This document shows, piece by piece, positions 4,262 through 56,229 of a stretch of 64,000 nt of DNA. The notes under the pieces were generated by a model. That model saw nothing but the letters and a program-made list of their open reading frames with translations, was not told the DNA's origin and did no database searches. Positions within the stretch are counted from its first letter, which is position 1; every line of letters starts with the position of its first letter. The position numbers were made by a program, and so were the translations under genes. This DNA is from Risungbinella massiliensis (GTDB lineage: Bacteria; Bacillota; Bacilli; Thermoactinomycetales; Thermoactinomycetaceae), in NCBI RefSeq assembly GCF_000942395.1, contig NZ_LN812102.1, positions 1,276,816 to 1,340,815 of the forward strand, given 5' to 3'.

Positions 4262-4486
4262 GACGTCCTTCTTCTCTCCCATGTATAGTGCTCCACAAAA
4301 CAAAAGCTTTGTGACAGTGCCGTCCTCTTCGGTAACGACCCCAATCAGAAACATAGCGGAGTATGGATCTGACTTCGGCGAAAGTACCCTTTCCTCCCTA
4401 ATCATCGGCTTCCGCGCCTCCTAGTGAGTACTGATGTCTTCCGCGACCTCTATCGCACAGGTAGAAATATATTTGGTTTAAGTGAT
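4262..4486 (-). promoter_or_regulatory. Lysine riboswitch (L box) of lysC
   Basis: The leader shows the L-box landmarks in order on the minus strand: GATAGAGGTCGCGG near 4452-4438, AGGGAGGAAAGGGTAC near 4401-4384, TCGCCGAAGTCAG near 4383-4371, and GGCACTGTCACA near 4323-4311. These match the conserved core of the B. subtilis lysC leader (GATAGAGGTGCG, GTCGCCGAAG, GGCTGTCA). A terminator hairpin follows. Lysine binding would fold the aptamer and let the terminator form, which lowers lysC expression. Confidence 0.9.
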
Positions 4487-23623: not shown

Positions 23624-24190
23624 TTACATCGAGTAAGTTGTACAATGCCAATGTTTAGAATCCGATTTTCTTTTACCTTGCCAACCCATTTTTTGTAGTT
23701 CTTTTGCAATTAACAAATTAAAAAATCCATGCCCAACCAAAGCTACTGATTTATGTTTTTGAGCATATTCAGTTAATAATAAACTTGCCTTTTTCGCTCT
23801 CTGTATTTTGGCATTGCTTACCGATTCACATCTCCTTGCATAACCACTAAGCCATAAACACCGAAAAAGAACTGCCCATACGTTAGATGTTAGTTTTATA
23901 CCCCAAAAATTGATATCAGGATCAGGCAATTCTGTTTCACGAAATAGTGGAAGGGATATGGTTTTTACATTTTTATTTAATATCTGTGCTGATTCAATTG
24001 ATCTTTTTAAATCACTAGTAATCACTATATTCGCTTGTGAAATTTTTTCAAGTGTATTGGCGGGATACACATTCTCTTCGAATACTCCATGGGAATCATA
24101 TTGTTCAACCCATTTTTTAAAATCCTTGCAAGTTATTTGAGCCTGCTCAGTATATTTAGATTTACCATGTCGAATCAATGATATTTCCAT
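23624..24190 (-). CDS. Histidine phosphatase family protein
   Basis: The 188-residue protein begins MEISLIRHGKSKYTE, where RHG is the phosphoryl-accepting histidine motif, and has the second histidine in VALVGHGFFNLLIAKEL. It also has the middle landmark ITSDLKRSIESAQIL. Such proteins remove phosphate from small molecules or proteins; the substrate is unknown. The gene belongs to the segment inserted between fadR and lcfA. No close partner is seen. Confidence 0.83.
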   Translation of the reverse strand: MEISLIRHGKSKYTEQAQITCKDFKKWVEQYDSHGVFEENVYPANTLEKISQANIVITSDLKRSIESAQILNKNVKTISLPLFRETELPDPDINFWGIKLTSNVWAVLFRCLWLSGYARRCESVSNAKIQRAKKASLLLTEYAQKHKSVALVGHGFFNLLIAKELQKMGWQGKRKSDSKHWHCTTYSM

Positions 24191-24307
24191 TTATAAATCT
24201 CCTGTATAGTTTTAGTATTTCGTATTTTCATAACGGAAACTATACCAAAGAAATGCAATCCACTCCATTACGGCTGTTTTATAGACGTTACACAAATTTT
24301 CTAACAG

Positions 24308-24446
24308 AGCATGTTGCATAATTAGGCTAAAGCCAGAGGTTTTCCCCTTTTGAGATGCGACTATGAGTGGTAGGGATCCGGAGCAGATCAGAAGCGGGAA
24401 AACCGGCGGCGCGCCTATGTTGAACTTTGATTTATGTATCAAGCTA
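24308..24446 (+). mobile_element. MITE copy 2 (139 bp)
   Basis: This copy is about 85 percent identical by eye to copy 1 and of the same length. It begins AGCATGTTGCATAATTAG and ends TTTATGTATCAAGCTA. The flanks TAACAG (left) and TAACAT (right) could be a decayed target duplication. It contains the same GGTTTTCCC/GGGAAAACC pair and GGCGGCGCGCC. Confidence 0.85.
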
Positions 24447-39130: not shown

Positions 39131-39375
39131 AAAAAAAGACTCGCCTCCTTGTAAAAAGGAGACGAGTCAAACCCGCGGTACCACTCCAATTATTCTATGC
39201 CTAGAATCTCTTGTGTTAGTTGATAACGGGTTTTCATCCCGGACATGTCCTACTAGTACTTCAGACACGCGTCTCTAGAGTGCGCTTCCATACCAATCAC
39301 CCGCTGGGCTCACACCTTCCCCAACTCGCTAGAGGGCTCATAGTTGTACTCTCTCTGTCTACGACGTTCCATATA
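39131..39375 (-). promoter_or_regulatory. T-box riboswitch of argS, specifier CGC
   Basis: The T-box sequence GGAGTGGTACCGCGGGT lies at 39187-39171, followed by the terminator GACTCGTCTCC...GGAGGCGAGTC and T7. The distal stem I contains AGCGAGTTGGGGAAGGTG. The specifier-loop context GGAAG-CGC-ACTCT aligns with GAAA-TTC-ACTCT of the pheST leader, which identifies CGC (Arg) at 39284-39282. Uncharged tRNA-Arg would favour read-through into argS. Confidence 0.92.
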
Positions 39376-39628: not shown

Positions 39629-41986
39629 CTATTTCAGTTCTACCACCGTTACTCCTGATCCACCTTCACCAATAGCACCCAGTCGGTAAGATTTAACAGA
39701 ACGGTGGCGTCGCAAGAAATTTTGTACTCCCGTTCGAAGTGCACCAGTTCCTTTGCCATGAATGAGATGAATTTGCTTGTATCCAGCAAGTACGGAGTGG
39801 TCTAAATACTGATCGATCTCTTGGATCGCTTCTTCTACCATCTTCCCTCGTAGATCTAGTTCTGGTGATACATCTTGGTTGCTACGAACAAATGTAGCTT
39901 TTGGCTGTTTGGTTTGTTGTTTTGGTGTCTCACGTTTTTCCAGTTGATTGGCTTTTAGTTTCATCTTTAAAACACCAATCTGCACTTGGAATTCTTTATT
40001 ACCTACTTCTTCCACAATAAATCCTTTTTGTTGGAAACTAGGAATGTAGACCTCGTCGCCCACCTCTAGCTTCTCTTCTTTTTTCTTGGAGACCATCTTT
40101 TGTGGTAGTTTCATCTCTGGAACTACTTTTCCTAGTCTTGCTCTCATCTCATTTAATTCATGTTCTTTGAGATCTTGTGGACGTAATTTCGCCCATTCCC
40201 GTAACTCTTTTAATACTTCATCCGCTTCTTGTTCTGCACGGTTTACTATACGTCTGGCTTCTTGGCGTGCTTTTTCCCGTAGCTGGATCTTTTCCTCTTC
40301 GAAACGCTCCCAATTGGTACGTACTTCGGCATGCATCGATTCTGCTTCTTCTCTCAGCTTCATCGCTTCCTTCAAAGTCTCCTCGGCAGCTTTCCTTTCA
40401 GCTGTTAAAGTTGCAATCATCTCTTCTAAATCTCGTTCTTCTGGAGAAAGATGTTTTTCTGCGGCATCAATCAACTCTAGTGAAAGCCCTAACCGCCGTG
40501 AAATAGCAAATGCATTTGATTTTCCCGGTACACCAATCAACAAGCGATATGTAGGACGAAGGGTCTCTACATCGAATTCTACGCTGGCATTGAGTGCATG
40601 TGGGTGGGTATGAGCAAACACCTTTAGCTCACTATAATGAGTGGTAGCCATGACGGTAGCTCCACGTTCCATTACATCTTCTAAGATGGAGATTGCGAGA
40701 GCAGCTCCTTCTGTTGGGTCAGTGCCCGCACCAAGTTCATCAAATAAAATCAAGCTGTCTGAGTCCATTTGTGACAAAATTCGAATGATGTTAGTCATAT
40801 GTCCTGAGAAAGTACTAAGACTCTGTTCAATACTTTGCTCATCCCCAATATCGGCAAAGATCCCACTAAATAAAGAGATCGTACTCTCTGGTTCTGCTAA
40901 GATGGGAAGTCCACATTGGGCCATCAAAGCAGCTAGTCCTACTGTCTTTAGGCTGACTGTCTTACCTCCAGTGTTCGGTCCAGTAATGAGAAGAGCTTGG
41001 ATTGGAGTAGAAAGCTCTACATCAATTGGAACTGCAATCTTCGGGTCGAGTAGCGGATGACGTGCTTTGCGTAGTGAGATAGTTCTCTGGGTTGCTAAAT
41101 TGGGGATCACCGCTTTATGACGGTGCGCAAATCTTGCTTTCGCTAACAAAAAGTCGATCTCGCCAAGCAAATCGATATTGGATCGCAAAAAGTCAGCTTG
41201 TTCCGCTATTAAATTAGTTAGTTCTGCTAAAATCCGCTCTACTTCTCTTGTCTCTTTCAGCTCTAACTCACGTAACTGGTTATTAAGTGGTACTACACTT
41301 TGCGGCTCCATAAATAGAGTTGCACCAGATGCTGACTGATCGTGTACGATTCCACCAAACTGGACACGATATTCTGATTTTACTGGAATGACATACCGAT
41401 CAAAACGCTGGGTAATAATCGCTTCTTGTAACATTTTTTGCTTGTTTCGCAGTACTTGTTGTAAGTTACTTTGGATTTGGGCTCTGGTCGTCTCCATCTG
41501 ACGACGAATTCTACTCAATTCGGGGCTTGCTGAGTCTCGAACAATTTCTTGCTCATCAATGGAATCAGTCAAAGTATGTTCTAAATTTTCTAGACTTTCA
41601 ATTGCCTCTGTCATCTGACGTAACAAGGGTAATTCATATTTTTCTATATCAACCTGTCGTAAGCTTGATTTGGCGTTTCGCCCTGCTCGGATGGTACCAG
41701 CAACGCCTAAACACTCTTCTTCATTTAAGATACCACCCAATTCGGCTCGTTTGAGTGAAGGGCGAATATCTACCAGACCTCGCAGGGAGATTTCTCCTTT
41801 CATCCGGAGCCAAACCATTGCCTCTTCAGTCTTGTCTAACCATAATTGAACTGTCTGTCTCTCAGTAGATGGTTGCATTTGCGAAATCCACTCTTTTCCG
41901 AGTGTGGAAGTTGCAAGCTCTTCTACCATCTGACGAATCTGATTAAACTCTAGCGGTCTCTCTGTCCATTGCTTCACCGCTGTCAC
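39629..41986 (-). CDS. mutS2: Endonuclease MutS2
   Basis: The 785-residue protein has the MutS ATPase core (Walker A LLITGPNTGGKTVSLKTVGL, Walker B DSLILFDELGAGTDPTEGAAL). It then has a long coiled region (about 500-620) and a C-terminal Smr nuclease domain starting at PELDLRGKMVEEAIQEIDQY with HGKGTGALR. It lacks the MutS mismatch-binding N-terminus. MutS2 is known to suppress recombination, and in B. subtilis it rescues collided ribosomes. In B. subtilis it lies beside polX; here about 5.5 kb separates them. Confidence 0.95.
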   Translation of the reverse strand: MTAVKQWTERPLEFNQIRQMVEELATSTLGKEWISQMQPSTERQTVQLWLDKTEEAMVWLRMKGEISLRGLVDIRPSLKRAELGGILNEEECLGVAGTIRAGRNAKSSLRQVDIEKYELPLLRQMTEAIESLENLEHTLTDSIDEQEIVRDSASPELSRIRRQMETTRAQIQSNLQQVLRNKQKMLQEAIITQRFDRYVIPVKSEYRVQFGGIVHDQSASGATLFMEPQSVVPLNNQLRELELKETREVERILAELTNLIAEQADFLRSNIDLLGEIDFLLAKARFAHRHKAVIPNLATQRTISLRKARHPLLDPKIAVPIDVELSTPIQALLITGPNTGGKTVSLKTVGLAALMAQCGLPILAEPESTISLFSGIFADIGDEQSIEQSLSTFSGHMTNIIRILSQMDSDSLILFDELGAGTDPTEGAALAISILEDVMERGATVMATTHYSELKVFAHTHPHALNASVEFDVETLRPTYRLLIGVPGKSNAFAISRRLGLSLELIDAAEKHLSPEERDLEEMIATLTAERKAAEETLKEAMKLREEAESMHAEVRTNWERFEEEKIQLREKARQEARRIVNRAEQEADEVLKELREWAKLRPQDLKEHELNEMRARLGKVVPEMKLPQKMVSKKKEEKLEVGDEVYIPSFQQKGFIVEEVGNKEFQVQIGVLKMKLKANQLEKRETPKQQTKQPKATFVRSNQDVSPELDLRGKMVEEAIQEIDQYLDHSVLAGYKQIHLIHGKGTGALRTGVQNFLRRHRSVKSYRLGAIGEGGSGVTVVELK

Positions 41987-42159
41987 CTCCGTACGAATGC
42001 AAACAGATCTATTATATCATGGAAAGAGAGAATTCAATAAAGGTCTTATGAGTAGTTATCCCTACCTAATCCTCTGTGTTTTCTTTCGACATTGGAGATG
42101 GGGATCTTACTGCCCGTTAGAACGTTGACAAAACAGGCACAAAACACTCCAAAAAACGG

Positions 42160-42187
42160 TTGTATTAATTCTGAATTCCGTTATAAT
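42160..42187 (+). promoter_or_regulatory. Promoter of the MBL-fold gene
   Basis: TTGTAT (42160-42165) and TATAAT (42182-42187) are 16 bases apart. Transcription would start near 42194, immediately before the first leader helix. Confidence 0.75.
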
Positions 42188-42193
42188 TTACTT

Positions 42194-42314
42194 AATTCTC
42201 TTGGCTAGCCTTAAATCGGTAGTTCCTCTACCTGTTTAGGGGTAGCCAAGAGAAGAGATCAAGAAATCTCTCTTTTGGCTATCGACCCATTAAAACACAA
42301 GGGAGTCGATAGAA
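42194..42314 (+). promoter_or_regulatory. Switch-like 5' leader with competing helices before the MBL-fold gene
   Basis: Helix 1 pairs TTCTCTTGGCTA (42196-42207) with TAGCCAAGAGAA (42243-42254), 12 perfect bp, and caps an inner hairpin GGTAG/CTACC. Helix 2 pairs 42243-42259 with 42266-42281, about 16 bp with one bulge, and excludes helix 1. Helix 3 pairs CTATCGACCC (42279-42288) with GGGAGTCGATAG (42301-42312) and buries the GGGAG ribosome site; it shares three bases with helix 2. The layout is that of a translational switch. No known riboswitch class was recognised. Confidence 0.6.
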
Positions 42315-43172
42315 TTGAACATCGAGATTTTACCACTAGCTGTTGGATCTTCCAACGCGACACCGCTTGGTAACACTTCTATGTTAGTCAAATTAAAAAG
42401 AGAGTATTTCTTGATCGATACAGGTTATCTAGCTGCACTCCGCCTTAGAGAACAGTTGATTAAACATCCAGAAGTAGCTGATCAGATAAAGGCGATCCTG
42501 TTTACACACCAAGATAATGACCATACTGCTGATTATTTTGGAGTCATTCAGGAAATTTCACGGAGAAGAAGCAATCCATTTAAAAACGAACCCATTCACA
42601 TATATGCTAATCAGAGGACGGTCAAAGAATTAAAGGCCCGTCTCAAAATATGTAACTTTAAATGTTCTTTCCTAATATATAACATTATCAAAGCAGGAGA
42701 TTTTTTTCAGGTAGCGGATCTACCTTTGATGGTATCCACTCTTGAGATGGATCATATACGCAGACGACCTAGAAAACTATGGGACAAGCTTCGTAGAAAA
42801 CGTGCAGAAGATGCACTCAGCTTCTCCTTTTCTTCCTTAGATCTATCTGAAAAATACTTTACAGTGTTTACAGATGGTGTATTAGGATGTAGTGCCTCTC
42901 GCCATGAAGCAGCAGCTTTTTGTCAGGGAAGTCGTGTTATCTTAGCATCTGCTATGCATGGTGCAAAGGAAGACTTACCAACTGGAACTCATGCAACCAC
43001 TTATCAATATGCACAAGTAGCGAACTTAGCAAATATTCCTGCAGTATACTTTTACCATCAAGAAGAAAGCTTTACACCAAAAGAACAATTATTACTAGAG
43101 GCAGCTCCTTTTTATCAAGGAGAAATGGATTTTCTGGAAGTAAATCAACCTGTTACCGTATGGGAGCAGTAA
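42315..43172 (+). CDS. Metallo-beta-lactamase-fold hydrolase
   Basis: The 285-residue protein starts at TTG, 9 bases after GGGAG. The MBL metal motif appears as FTHQDNDHTADYF (H65, D67, D69, H70); the second position is Asp where His is usual. Later ligands may be H202 or D192 in FTDGVLGCSASRHEA and H220 in ASAMHGAKEDL. The substrate is unknown. It lies between divergent mutS2 and convergent sleB, with its own promoter, leader and terminator. Confidence 0.82.
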   Translation: MNIEILPLAVGSSNATPLGNTSMLVKLKREYFLIDTGYLAALRLREQLIKHPEVADQIKAILFTHQDNDHTADYFGVIQEISRRRSNPFKNEPIHIYANQRTVKELKARLKICNFKCSFLIYNIIKAGDFFQVADLPLMVSTLEMDHIRRRPRKLWDKLRRKRAEDALSFSFSSLDLSEKYFTVFTDGVLGCSASRHEAAAFCQGSRVILASAMHGAKEDLPTGTHATTYQYAQVANLANIPAVYFYHQEESFTPKEQLLLEAAPFYQGEMDFLEVNQPVTVWEQ

Positions 43173-44233: not shown

Positions 44234-45013
44234 TTACTTTTTAGCTTTTTTCGAGTGAAGCGCGACCTGATGGAGTCCATTTTTTAACTTTGTTTTCCAT
44301 CGTTGAATCTGCTCATGCCCGAAATATGGGTGATTTTCATCAGACACAATAAAATCTGCAATTAACTTTACTCCAAAGAACAGTGCATATTTCTTCGCTT
44401 CACCTTGGAGAAAGTCTAGCATCTCATTCCAAGATACAAGTTCGAATTGCAGTTCTTGCATTGCTTTGCCGAGCTCAATCATCAACTCAGCAGCTAATCT
44501 CTTTTGAGCGGCTTGAGTTGCAGGATCACTAATTGTATTCACTAGCTCAAACTTATCAAATCTTCTTTTGTGTTTTTTGATTTCGGATTGCTTTTTCTCC
44601 AATTCCTTCTGACGCTCTAGCAACTTCTCCAGTGATAGATTGTGCTCCGTTTGGTAACTAACTTCCACCATCCGAACCTTACGGTCAAAAGACATGATGA
44701 CTCGATAAAGAACCCGGATGTCGAGTCCTCCAATCGAAACGGTGTGCTGGAAGATATAATTTGTTCCATCTGGTTTTGGAAGAATAAAAGGATTTACTAC
44801 TGGTCCATTGACAGATACAGGATTCGGTGTAGTTCCAGAATTAATGCTTTTCTGCTTTTTCCCGATCCGAATGAGATCCTTTACAAATTCTATCTCTTGA
44901 CCATAAAAAAGGTCTAAAAATTCAAGAATTGGTTTGAGATTTCCTTTAGTCGGATCCCAATTGTTCAACTTTTGTAGGATGTTTGGCAACTGACCCAAAT
45001 GAAATTTTTTCAA
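44234..45013 (-). CDS. Hypothetical protein, 259 aa, with central coiled coil
   Basis: A TTG start follows GGAGGGG by 6-7 bases. The product begins MKKFHLGQLPNILQKLNNWD. A beta-type region (FQHTVSIGGLDIRVLYRVIM) is followed by a charged coiled coil (residues 128-150) and a helical end. No signal peptide is seen. I recognise no family. It follows the 300-aa hypothetical gene on the same strand. A competing-helix leader covers its ribosome site. Confidence 0.72.
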   Translation of the reverse strand: MKKFHLGQLPNILQKLNNWDPTKGNLKPILEFLDLFYGQEIEFVKDLIRIGKKQKSINSGTTPNPVSVNGPVVNPFILPKPDGTNYIFQHTVSIGGLDIRVLYRVIMSFDRKVRMVEVSYQTEHNLSLEKLLERQKELEKKQSEIKKHKRRFDKFELVNTISDPATQAAQKRLAAELMIELGKAMQELQFELVSWNEMLDFLQGEAKKYALFFGVKLIADFIVSDENHPYFGHEQIQRWKTKLKNGLHQVALHSKKAKK

Positions 45014-45118
45014 TTTGATCCCCTCCTTGGATGATAATGAATGACCAAGGAAGAGATCCTCCTCCTTGGTTTCCTATGCTCCCATTAAGAAGAACAGGAA
45101 ACCAAGGAGGATCTAGTT
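45014..45118 (-). promoter_or_regulatory. Competing-helix leader before the 259-aa gene
   Basis: On the minus strand, CCTCCTTGGTTTCCT (45110-45096) pairs perfectly with AGGAAACCAAGGAGG (45075-45061). The latter can instead pair by 8 bp with TCCTTGGT near 45051-45044. That segment in turn can pair (CCTTGG/CCAAGG) with the ribosome-site region CCAAGGAGGGG (45030-45020). The first arm could also reach the ribosome site directly. Confidence 0.5.
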
Positions 45119-45163: not shown

Positions 45164-46066
45164 CTAGACAGATCTGCTTAACAGATTTTCTAGCATTTCA
45201 ACAGTAGGAGATGCTCCACTTTGCAACTCTTTCTGCCGGTCTCTAATTACTTTCTTCCAACTCAAGAGATTTCGCTTCGTTTTTTGTAATGCATTCAACA
45301 TGAGTTGGAGATCCAATTCTTTGTATCGAAAGTCGACAAATTTTTCCCCATACTGTTCAACTATAACCATTGTACGAGGAGGTACAGCTGGGACATAGAC
45401 TGAAGTAGGGATGTCTACAGATGGTTGAATATTGGTCAGGACCATCTGCTTTGTTACAAAGATTGGACCAGTGGACAAATTATTTAAAATGTGTCGAACA
45501 AAAGCAGTCCTTTCTGTCAGCTCTGTTTCGAATTCATTTTCAAGTTGTGTGAGAAATAAGCGAAGGACATAGAGTAGTGCTTTTTTTACCTCTTCCGACA
45601 TAGTTACTGATGGATCCGAATCATCGCTCTCCATAGCAGTAAATAGCTGTTCCATAGCGTATACGATCATTTTGCGGCGATCAAATGCGAGGTCTTCTCT
45701 ATAATCAAACATTTGTTGATATAAAGCGACTCGGTTCCAATCCCAAACTTCCGATTTAGAAGGGATCGGAAATGTGGATTGAACATATAGATTAGGAGTT
45801 ATTGTTGAGTCTTTTTTTAAAGATACGATACAATTCAAATTCTCTGGTATATTCATCCAAAATGGTTCACAGTAACGATGTGAGACTCCTGAGCGAATGG
45901 CCCGTAAGCTGTCAGACAAAACATGCTTCTTTCGATTGCTTTCAAATAAATCCACTTCTGCTGCAATTAATAGGAAATCTACTACATCTTCGATGGAAAG
46001 GATCTCTTGATTTAACATTTCTGCCTTATCGAATAAAACACTTAAATCATGGTAGTTTTTTAACAT
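45164..46066 (-). CDS. Hypothetical protein, 300 aa
   Basis: The product begins MLKNYHDLSVLFDKAEMLNQ and is soluble and mostly helical, with a middle region IFVTKQMVLTNIQPSVDIPT followed by SVYVPAVPPRTMVIVEQYGE. I recognise no family. A TTGTCC-N17-TATAAT promoter and a structured leader lie upstream. The 259-aa hypothetical gene follows on the same strand after 150 bp. The two genes lie between sleB and the M50 protease. Confidence 0.72.
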   Translation of the reverse strand: MLKNYHDLSVLFDKAEMLNQEILSIEDVVDFLLIAAEVDLFESNRKKHVLSDSLRAIRSGVSHRYCEPFWMNIPENLNCIVSLKKDSTITPNLYVQSTFPIPSKSEVWDWNRVALYQQMFDYREDLAFDRRKMIVYAMEQLFTAMESDDSDPSVTMSEEVKKALLYVLRLFLTQLENEFETELTERTAFVRHILNNLSTGPIFVTKQMVLTNIQPSVDIPTSVYVPAVPPRTMVIVEQYGEKFVDFRYKELDLQLMLNALQKTKRNLLSWKKVIRDRQKELQSGASPTVEMLENLLSRSV

Positions 46067-46188
46067 TCCTCACCACTCCTAATAATAATGCTAAGGAGAG
46101 AACCTATACAGGTCCTCCTTGCCTCGCAGATACCCAGCTAGAGACAAACTGCATACCACGAGGCAGGAGATGAGGGCTTTATTCGATT
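46067..46188 (-). promoter_or_regulatory. Competing-helix leader before the 300-aa gene
   Basis: On the minus strand, CTCCTGCCTCG (46169-46159) pairs with CGAGGC(A)AGGAG (46126-46115) around a 32-base inner hairpin. AAGGAGGACCT (46120-46110) can instead pair with AGGTTCTCTCCTT (46105-46093). CTCCT of that arm can pair with AGGAG (46080-46076), the ribosome site. A 16-codon ORF (MQFVSSWVSARQGGPV, 46154-46104) spans the second arm. Confidence 0.5.
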
Positions 46189-53802: not shown

Positions 53803-54062
53803 AAAAAAACCCCCGACCCTCTAAAGGGACGAGAGATCCGCGGTACCACCCTTGTTGAGAAAAGAAAGATCATTCACTCTTTTCTCCTCTTTTCTTCGAT
53901 AACGGAAAAGTTCCGGTACTCCCTACTATGTAGTAACAACAGTTTCGGGAGCCTTGCTCCAGAGTGAATTTCAATAGCCGTCTCCTTAAAGTTGCTTCCA
54001 GTCACGGCAACTCCTCCCTGTCAAGGTCGCACTATCTACTCGTCTCTTTCTTCGCAACAAGA
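53803..54062 (-). promoter_or_regulatory. T-box riboswitch of pheST, specifier TTC
   Basis: The T-box GGGTGGTACCGCGG lies at 53851-53838. The terminator (CCCT/AGGG stem, GGGG, T7) follows. The specifier context GAAA-TTC-ACTCT at 53968-53966 gives the Phe codon UUC. The 5' end near 54060 carries the usual GCGAAGAAAGAGACGAGTAG start. Confidence 0.93.
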
Positions 54063-55673: not shown

Positions 55674-56229
55674 ATGCATAAGGCATTTCAGTTCCAGATC
55701 GATCTACTAAGGAACAAGTACAATTGATAAATAAATCGATCGGGTGTAGTCGTTTGTTTTTAACTATCTCTTATAGCTTGTTGCATTAAACTAAGTTAAG
55801 CGTAGGCGCGCCGCCGGTTTTCCCGCTTCTGATCTGCTCCGGCTCCCTAACGCTCATAGTCGCATCTCAAAAGGGGAAAACCTCTGGCTTTGGGTTCAAT
55901 GGCAAGAAGCCTATCGAGAAACAAAGAAAGGGCTCACCTATCCTACTTGTGTAGCTCCACTTCTCTCCAAAAACAAAATGACCGACCACGGTGGAAAAGC
56001 AAACGGAATCCAGTACAGTCTTATACCAGTCAATGCACATCACAAAAAGAGTTGTCCTCTAGTATCGAAGTCGGTACAAAATCAAACGTTACCCAAGCTA
56101 GGTTGGGTAATGTTTGCCAAGTCTCGAGAAGTAGAAGGGAAAATCCTTTCTGCTACCATTTGTAGAAACCCTACTGGCAAATATTTTATTTCCATAGATG
56201 GGATTACCCAAGAATCCCCCACCTCTTAG
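55674..56229 (+). pseudogene. tnpB remnant interrupted by a MITE
   Basis: A GAGGAG site precedes MHKAFQFQID; after a frameshift the frame continues STKEQVQLINKSIGCSR, a typical TnpB start. A MITE then interrupts. Beyond it the frame resumes WQEAYRETKKGLTYPTCVA and runs through LPKLGWVMFAKSREVEGKIL and NPTGKYFISIDG, then jumps directly to the right end (ITQESPTS stop). The whole RuvC region is deleted, so the protein is dead. Confidence 0.85.
55774..55896 (-). mobile_element. MITE copy 4, inside the tnpB remnant
   Basis: In reverse orientation it carries TAGCTTGTTGCATTAA, GGCGCGCCGCCGGTTTTCCC, CGCATCTCAAAAGGGGAAAA and CCTCTGGCTTTGGG, matching copies 1 and 2. Its right inverted repeat is missing; the match stops near 55895 and tnpB sequence resumes at about 55899. 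Confidence 0.82.

Follow-up and report, generated by a model that had tools for sequence, protein, structure and literature searches.

In translational riboswitches, anti-sequester and sequester arms are arranged in series, and erm leaders form mutually exclusive helices, as in vmlR. RNase III recognizes a two-turn duplex of free sequence. In Staphylococcus aureus, this enzyme clips the long 5' hairpin of cspA, leaving a shorter message with greater stability and improved translation, and a hairpin at the 5' terminus is reported to inhibit RNase J1 (PMC3386247). The nascent fold of type I toxin mRNAs closes the ribosome site, which a structural or processing event then opens (PMC11228461), and the vmlR attenuator of B. 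subtilis has mutually exclusive leader helices (PMC9226507).

The leader considered here, L1, is found upstream of an MBL-fold gene in a 64,000-nucleotide stretch of the Risungbinella massiliensis genome, which is called the window below. Like the cspA leader, L1 comes from a Gram-positive organism and starts with a long hairpin that precedes the ribosome site; this hairpin spans about two helical turns (24 bp), close to a 5' end that is inferred from a TATAAT hexamer. Unlike cspA, L1 has a second hairpin on the ribosome site, and pairing is possible between the 5' arm of this second hairpin and the 3' arm of the leading one; also, the layout occurs here before several unrelated genes, and cleavage is only proposed. 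The predicted closing of the site by the nascent fold, and its proposed opening by a structural or processing event, recall the type I toxin mRNAs. Unlike the toxin mRNAs, the genes considered here encode products of 70 to 300 amino acids, that of L1 being a 285-amino-acid MBL-fold protein, and no toxicity is implied. Alternative leader helices are shared with vmlR, whereas vmlR and erm differ from these leaders, in which no start codon that has a ribosome site was found to begin in the 5' arm of the first hairpin (arm 1). The serial arms are also those of translational riboswitches, but here no aptamer is apparent and there is no Rfam match. In the open-licence literature searched, we found no such leader set and no paper joining Thermoactinomycetaceae and riboswitch.

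L1 occupies the region 42160-42330, between the MBL-fold gene and a divergent minus-strand gene starting at 41986 that is presumably mutS2-like. Its promoter comprises a perfect -10 hexamer (TATAAT, 42182..42187, plus strand, by direct reading) and a poor -35 element (TTGTAT, 3 of 6 matches), so transcription from about 42194 is plausible, as we infer from the TATAAT. The site is absent from the list given by a consensus promoter scan, presumably due to the -35 element. The RNA begins with hairpin P1 (arms 1 and 2; 42196..42254, plus strand), which has 24 bp within 57-59 nucleotides and a predicted energy of -37 to -38 kcal/mol. A perfect 12-bp helix (42196-42207 with 42243-42254), described in a sequence-only reading of this DNA, was found and is the base of P1. 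Next comes P2, a small and weak predicted hairpin (AGAGAT/ATCTCT, then CTTTT; 42254..42271, plus strand; -4.5 kcal/mol). Arm 2 can instead pair with arm 3 in the alternative helix 2:3 (42241..42283, plus strand), for which that reading had claimed 16 bp. The helix exists, but has 13 contiguous bp (42241-42253 with 42271-42283), including two G-U pairs. The claimed register mismatches beyond these, where 42254 A faces 42270 C by direct reading, and a bulged A next to the helix lets five pairs of P2 (42255-42259 with 42266-42270) stack.

The third helix is P3, a predicted hairpin of arms 3 and 4 (42279..42312, plus strand) in which 42279-42286 pairs with 42305-42312, followed by CC/GG across a bulged A (42279-42288 with 42302-42312 overall). 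As the sequence-only reading had it, P3 covers the GGGAG ribosome site (42301..42305, plus strand, 9 nucleotides before the TTG start codon), of which it pairs three of the five bases, leaving a mean unpaired probability of 0.37. The three-base overlap that had been reported between the second and third helices is likewise present, as 3-5 nucleotides. Folded from 42194, the L1 RNA reaches -56.1 kcal/mol, versus -30 +/- 3.75 kcal/mol in shuffles (z -6.96; 0 of 200 shuffles as good). As a whole, L1 is present in a single copy in its own genome.

The gene downstream of L1 (42315..43172, plus strand, TTG start, 285 amino acids) had been read as MBL-fold, and its product indeed matches Pfam Lactamase_B_2 (E 4.7e-11). 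The nearest NCBIfam models are those of ribonuclease Z, with scores far under the cut-offs. MBL proteins usually have the metal motif HxHxDH, and HQDNDH is found at this position. A predicted structure of the protein alone is uninformative (mean pLDDT 36), and a search of solved structures with the protein sequence gave no match at E 0.01. Three of 61 relatives were matched by the protein, including its own genome, with the other two matches weak and partial (8.6e-4 and 7.8e-5); among 398 genomes of the phylum, two were matched, again including its own, the other at 23% identity. None was confirmed in genome_contigs or viral contigs, two collections that may omit its own or near genomes. The MBL gene is therefore, in the collections searched, one without a close relative. 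Beyond it, in its own genome, is a cell-wall hydrolase gene. In several relatives, compared by eye with the upstream side displayed, the gene that reaches mutS2 has a product ending like this hydrolase. Because this cell-wall-hydrolase-like gene runs up to mutS2 in those relatives, the MBL gene looks like an insertion.

When successive 3' ends of L1 are folded, P1 is complete once about 42255 has been transcribed. Leaving the 5' arm of P1 unpaired costs 22.4 kcal/mol relative to the full L1 fold. If arm 1 is absent, P3 persists in the predicted fold alongside a trimmed helix 2:3. Predicted exposure of GGGAG is 0.37 in full-length L1 and 0.35 when L1 is cut within the P1 loop; it peaks at 0.49 for a start near 42234 and is back to 0.37 with most of arm 2 removed. 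With arm 1 absent, exposure is 0.45 with the cognate arm 2 versus 0.37 without arm 2, which is a small effect, and 0 of 14 swapped arms reached 0.45 in L1. Predicted exposure at 30, 37, and 50 degrees is 0.37, 0.37, and 0.38. The L1 switch is thus weak, because helices 2:3 and 3:4 share only 3-5 bases and coexist, and because exposure moves only from 0.37 to 0.35-0.49 when arm 1 is lost.

These results alter part of the original interpretation of L1. Mutually exclusive helices had been proposed, and the alternatives do share 3-5 bases, but their coexistence makes exclusivity weak. The suggestion of an attenuator or riboswitch, in the sense of a balanced switch, is not supported at L1: P1 is favored by 22.4 kcal/mol and P3 stays without arm 1. 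No aptamer core is apparent in L1, and a search from 8 nucleotides before P1 gave no start codon that has a ribosome site. That the RNA could be matched to no known class still stands, since Rfam 15 gives no match up to E 10 for 41980-42420, and the Rfam scan of the window has nothing at gathering score there. The serial 1:2, 2:3, 3:4 logic, weak at L1 itself, is supported across the group of leaders described below. For L1, then, prediction supports a brake by P3 and hardly supports its release; because the predicted opening is small, P3 of L1 may act mostly as a fixed brake.

A single-sequence model of the L1 leader (R1) matched 45113-44997 on the minus strand (33.6 bits, E 6e-7), revealing a second leader, L2. 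P1 of L2 (45060..45111, minus strand) has 23 bp, with an 18-bp stem that includes one G-U, and its P3 (45017..45058, minus strand) has 14 bp, including two G-U pairs, over AAGGAGGGG. The gene downstream (44234..45013, minus strand, TTG start) encodes 259 amino acids, and no relatives of this product were found in 41 other genomes of the order. A third leader, L3, has a P1 of 22 bp (46115..46169, minus strand) and a P3 formed by CTCCTTA/TTAGGAG (46076..46098, minus strand), which rests on direct reading and a serial-scan match; the computed fold favors a different local pairing over this P3. L3 precedes a gene for a 300-amino-acid product (45164..46066, minus strand) with no Pfam family above the cut-off. 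Both L2 and L3 are located at most 4 kb from L1 and have the same architecture.

Elsewhere in the window, a gene that we take to be CvpA-like (49905, minus strand) has an 18-bp hairpin, and a second, strong one covers its ribosome site; the P1-like hairpin may be the terminator of the preceding gene. The window also has ordinary structured RNAs, namely two T-box leaders and a lysine riboswitch (53822-54061, 39155-39370, and 4278-4460, all on the minus strand). A segment that includes pieces resembling ACCTCTGGCTTT and ATGCAACATG is found upstream of several genes, at about 24190-24320 (minus strand) and 55740-55890 (plus strand) in the window and also in the sampled stretches L065, L070, and L072. 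It looks like a small dispersed repeat.

In other genomes, R1 found nothing comparable to L1. Among 398 genomes of the class, it matched only its own genome at E 0.01, and among 42 genomes of the order, at E 1, it gave itself and two matches (E about 0.5) that were judged by eye to be non-leaders. Such genome searches pass through a first-look filter, which relatives that share only shape may escape; indeed, the 42-genome run omitted the known L2. A search of the same 42 genomes with L1 leader DNA at E 0.01 returned L1 itself and a 28-nucleotide promoter match in G025. The promoter stretch 42160-42187 has 89% identity over 28 nucleotides to a sequence upstream of a gene in a genome of another family (L013). 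The E value of 0.0016 is for one genome and borderline over 42, and the gene downstream presumably encodes an XRE/TPR-type regulator, by its sequence.

The wider set was sought in 59 evenly spaced 20-kb stretches plus the window, totaling 1.244 Mb, or about 36% of the 3.42-Mb, seven-contig genome (G000). A strict scan for three serial helices gave three sites in this sample: L1, its neighbor at 45111, and one terminator-like place, so that two of the three are in the window, about 2.7 kb apart. Other routes to members were relaxed serial scans, a model of the L093 leader (R2), P3 strength alone, P1 together with P3, and similarity; listings by energy only were dominated by coding regions and terminators. 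We count 15 leaders of the same anatomy in ten families, with members chosen partly by eye. By gene start, they are L1 (42315), L2 (45013), and L3 (46066) in the window; 8056 and 10680 in stretch L051; 873, 1281, and 2063 in L072; 11467 and 11895 in L088; 5639 and 6328 in L093; and single leaders near 16318 in L094, at 15235 in L061, and at 3520 in L099. Some motifs are common to L094 and the L093 pair, so the ten families are not all unrelated. Paralogous leaders precede paralogous or neighboring small genes, as pairs (L093:5519-6330, L072:1150-2065, and L088:11335-11897) or as a triple (L051:7920-10682 with L072:871-1014). Run on the whole genome, R2 found only the L093 pair, their own reverse strands, and one match at E 4.8. 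Because this run missed the leaders in L061 and L094, both of which R2 had found in stretches, the member count is based on the stretches that were sampled. Separately, an 89-amino-acid gene at L097:6193 (plus strand) has its ribosome site at the end of a roughly 22-bp inverted repeat.

The anatomy of the set is established by computation. Across the 15 leaders, P1 has 51-67 nucleotides, 21-30 bp, and a loop of 3-11, a uniformity that is partly imposed, since the ends of P1 were placed manually and only lengths from 40 to 75 nucleotides were accepted. L1 has the same layout, with P1 within 51-67 nucleotides and then a hairpin on the ribosome site. The distance from the start of P1 to the start codon is 87-132 nucleotides, and an exact TATAAT begins 7-36 nucleotides before P1 in 9 of the 15. 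The eight bases after P1 include six and five T residues in the two L072 nuclease leaders, four in one other, and at most three elsewhere. A start codon with a ribosome site never begins in arm 1 (0 of 15, searching from 8 nucleotides before P1 with six 5-mers), and 11 leaders, L1 included, have none anywhere. Those of L2, L094, L061, and L099 each have a candidate after arm 1; the longest candidate leader ORF, with 26 codons and an upstream AGGTG, runs from the P1 loop of L061.

A Pfam family above the cut-off is found for only 3 of the 15 products, namely two staphylococcal-nuclease-like proteins and the MBL protein; for the other 12 there is none. Relatives were searched for four products: the MBL protein, the 259-amino-acid protein, and those of L051 10680 and L072 2063. 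The L051 10680 product found only a paralog in its own genome among 42 genomes, and none in viral contigs. For the L072 2063 product, none was confirmed in genome_contigs, and 552 plasmid records were matched at identities below 60%.

The rarity of the arrangement was measured with a chain scan for series of perfect helices that end on a ribosome site, with minimum lengths of 9, 6, and 6 bp. Among 729 gene starts, 8 chains score at least 26, versus a mean of 0.2 in ten shuffles, in which up to three candidate starts per gene were used, whereas the observed count used all. At a score of at least 30, the counts are 5 of 729 versus 0 in ten shuffles of upstream regions. L1 scores 32 and ranks 4 of 729. 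Six of the eight chains are members of the set, and the others are leaders of a T-box (39107) and of a gene that is presumably groES-like. In relatives sampled likewise, chains of at least 26 number 1 of 222 gene starts in G003, 0 of 116 in G009, and 1 of 207 in G005. The set is rare, and because two of the three sampled relatives have one chain each, confinement to the genus cannot be claimed. The strong serial chains in G003 and G005 are located before genes at L135:1924 (minus strand) and L164:8203 (plus strand). Taken alone, strong ribosome-site hairpins are only modestly in excess, with 12 of 835 at or below -18 kcal/mol, versus 3.8-3.9 in two sets of 20 shuffles (maxima 8 and 11). The corresponding figures are 5 of 275 versus 0.8 (maximum 4) in G003, and there is no excess in G009 (11 of 129 versus 9.4) or G005 (0 of 248 versus 1.1).

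An effect of arm 2 on site exposure is supported group-wide by computation. With arm 1 absent, mean predicted exposure over the ten families is 0.50 with the cognate arm 2 versus 0.28 with swapped arms (permutation p 1.5e-4). For the six families found by at least one route without helix 2:3, the values are 0.49 and 0.19 (p 0.002), although one of these, L061, was also found by a route that uses helix 2:3. The cognate arm 2 adds at least 0.1 exposure over no arm 2 in 9 of the 15 leaders. The gain is small or absent in L1 (0.08), L3 (0.05), F3c (0.03), and F2b (none), and F3b and F2a lose exposure. Swapped arms on average beat the cognate arm in L3, F3b, F2a, and F5b. An automatic test of arm-2/arm-3 duplex energy in 26 unselected genes, a set from which six of the 15 members are missing and in which L1 was parsed wrongly, was not significant (p 0.075), nor was it in relatives (p 0.069, 0.17, and 0.33). 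Both results, from selected (p 1.5e-4) and unselected (p 0.075) arms, stand.

Compensatory changes are thin, but appear to favor pairing. Family F3 consists of three paralogous leaders, F3a (L051 10680), F3b (L072 873), and F3c (L051 8056), and helix 2:3 is kept in all three. Pair 8 is A-U, G-C, and G-C; pair 9 is U-A and C-G, with a broken C-A in the third sequence; and pair 3 includes one G-U. The compensated pairs adjoin the P1 stem in F3a and F3b and fall outside both it and the P3 stem. P1 of the third sequence has two mismatches by eye. In F1 (the L093 pair), P1 of one copy has one extra whole base pair, plus two G-U variants. F2 (L072 1281 and 2063) and F5 (L088) have no compensatory change and some mismatches.

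We propose, with a probability of roughly 0.4, that these are silent leaders opened by the loss of arm 1, with RNase III first among the triggers. The P1 duplex would form as the RNA emerges, and P3 would then cover the ribosome site, so that translation stays quiet. Because P1 forms first and is very stable, opening would require that its 5' arm be removed or occupied, upon which arm 2 could take arm 3 off the ribosome site. The likeliest trigger would be RNase III cleavage of the 21-30 bp P1 duplex, which is placed first because a two-turn duplex of free sequence is a target of this enzyme and because cspA is a precedent. A shorter transcript or a pairing RNA might have the same effect. The members share dimensions and arm logic, with arm 1 resembling arm 3 and arm 2 resembling arm 4, and hardly any letters are common between families.

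Alternately, the leaders might be static, with P1 guarding the 5' end from exonucleases, P3 weakening initiation, and the likeness of the arms left over from a ribosome-site hairpin that was duplicated in tandem. This is a serious, if tentative, possibility. It is consistent with the L1 site, which stays about as covered as in full length (0.35-0.49) in every truncation that keeps both P3 strands, with a P1 that exceeds its alternatives by about 22 kcal/mol, and with the reported inhibition of RNase J1 by a hairpin at the 5' terminus (PMC3386247). Against a static leader stand the family averages, in which the site is exposed more by the cognate arm 2 than by swapped arms, and the compensatory changes of helix 2:3 in F3a and F3b, which fall outside the P1 and P3 stems. 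It is unlikely that the set is a mixture of unrelated elements (strong hairpins, terminators, and G-rich ribosome sites whose pairing is fortuitous), in which relatedness would be limited to the paralogous pairs. In keeping with a mixture, the choice of members was partly visual, the arm test on unselected genes yielded p 0.075, and the hairpin excess is modest (12 of 835 versus 3.8-3.9), but chains scoring at least 30 (5 of 729 versus 0 in ten shuffles), the narrow range of P1 sizes within the allowed 40-75 nucleotides, and the permutation p of 0.002 in six families argue against it.

The remaining alternatives are each much less probable. A ligand-binding riboswitch or small-molecule attenuator would have such arms in serial order and a covered ribosome site, yet it is very improbable: Rfam has no match up to E 10, P1 has for its interior a plain stem, which varies from family to family, and the OFF fold looks too stable for a ligand to balance. 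A leader-peptide attenuator of translation (erm/vmlR kind), which a stalled ribosome opens, would have identical 1:2, 2:3, 3:4 wiring, and its arm 4 would likewise hold the ribosome site; the 26-codon ORF of L061 with its upstream AGGTG might encode such a peptide. Because, from 8 nucleotides before P1 onward, arm 1 lacks a start codon preceded by a ribosome site in all 15 leaders, and all four candidates come after it, we give this even less credence. Least probable of all is an RNA thermometer, which is suggested by the hairpin over the ribosome site and contradicted by the almost flat predicted exposure of L1 between 30 and 50 degrees.

By their logic, silent leaders opened by loss of arm 1 would be a variant of processing-opened leaders. 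A bolder and rather doubtful extension is that the set is a family defined by shape and not by sequence, in which a 5' two-turn duplex and an iterated anti-site/site array silence many accessory genes of the genus until a double-strand-specific nuclease clips the duplex. Such a shape-only family across unrelated genes would be new. Homology searches based on letters or covariation would hardly see a set that shares mainly dimensions and arm logic, and the genes behind the leaders, having few or no relatives, add to this difficulty. If the shape-only family is real, one trans-acting enzyme could switch on unrelated genes without a shared binding sequence. If the arm logic works, it would allow acquired genes to be silenced and released independently of their sequence.
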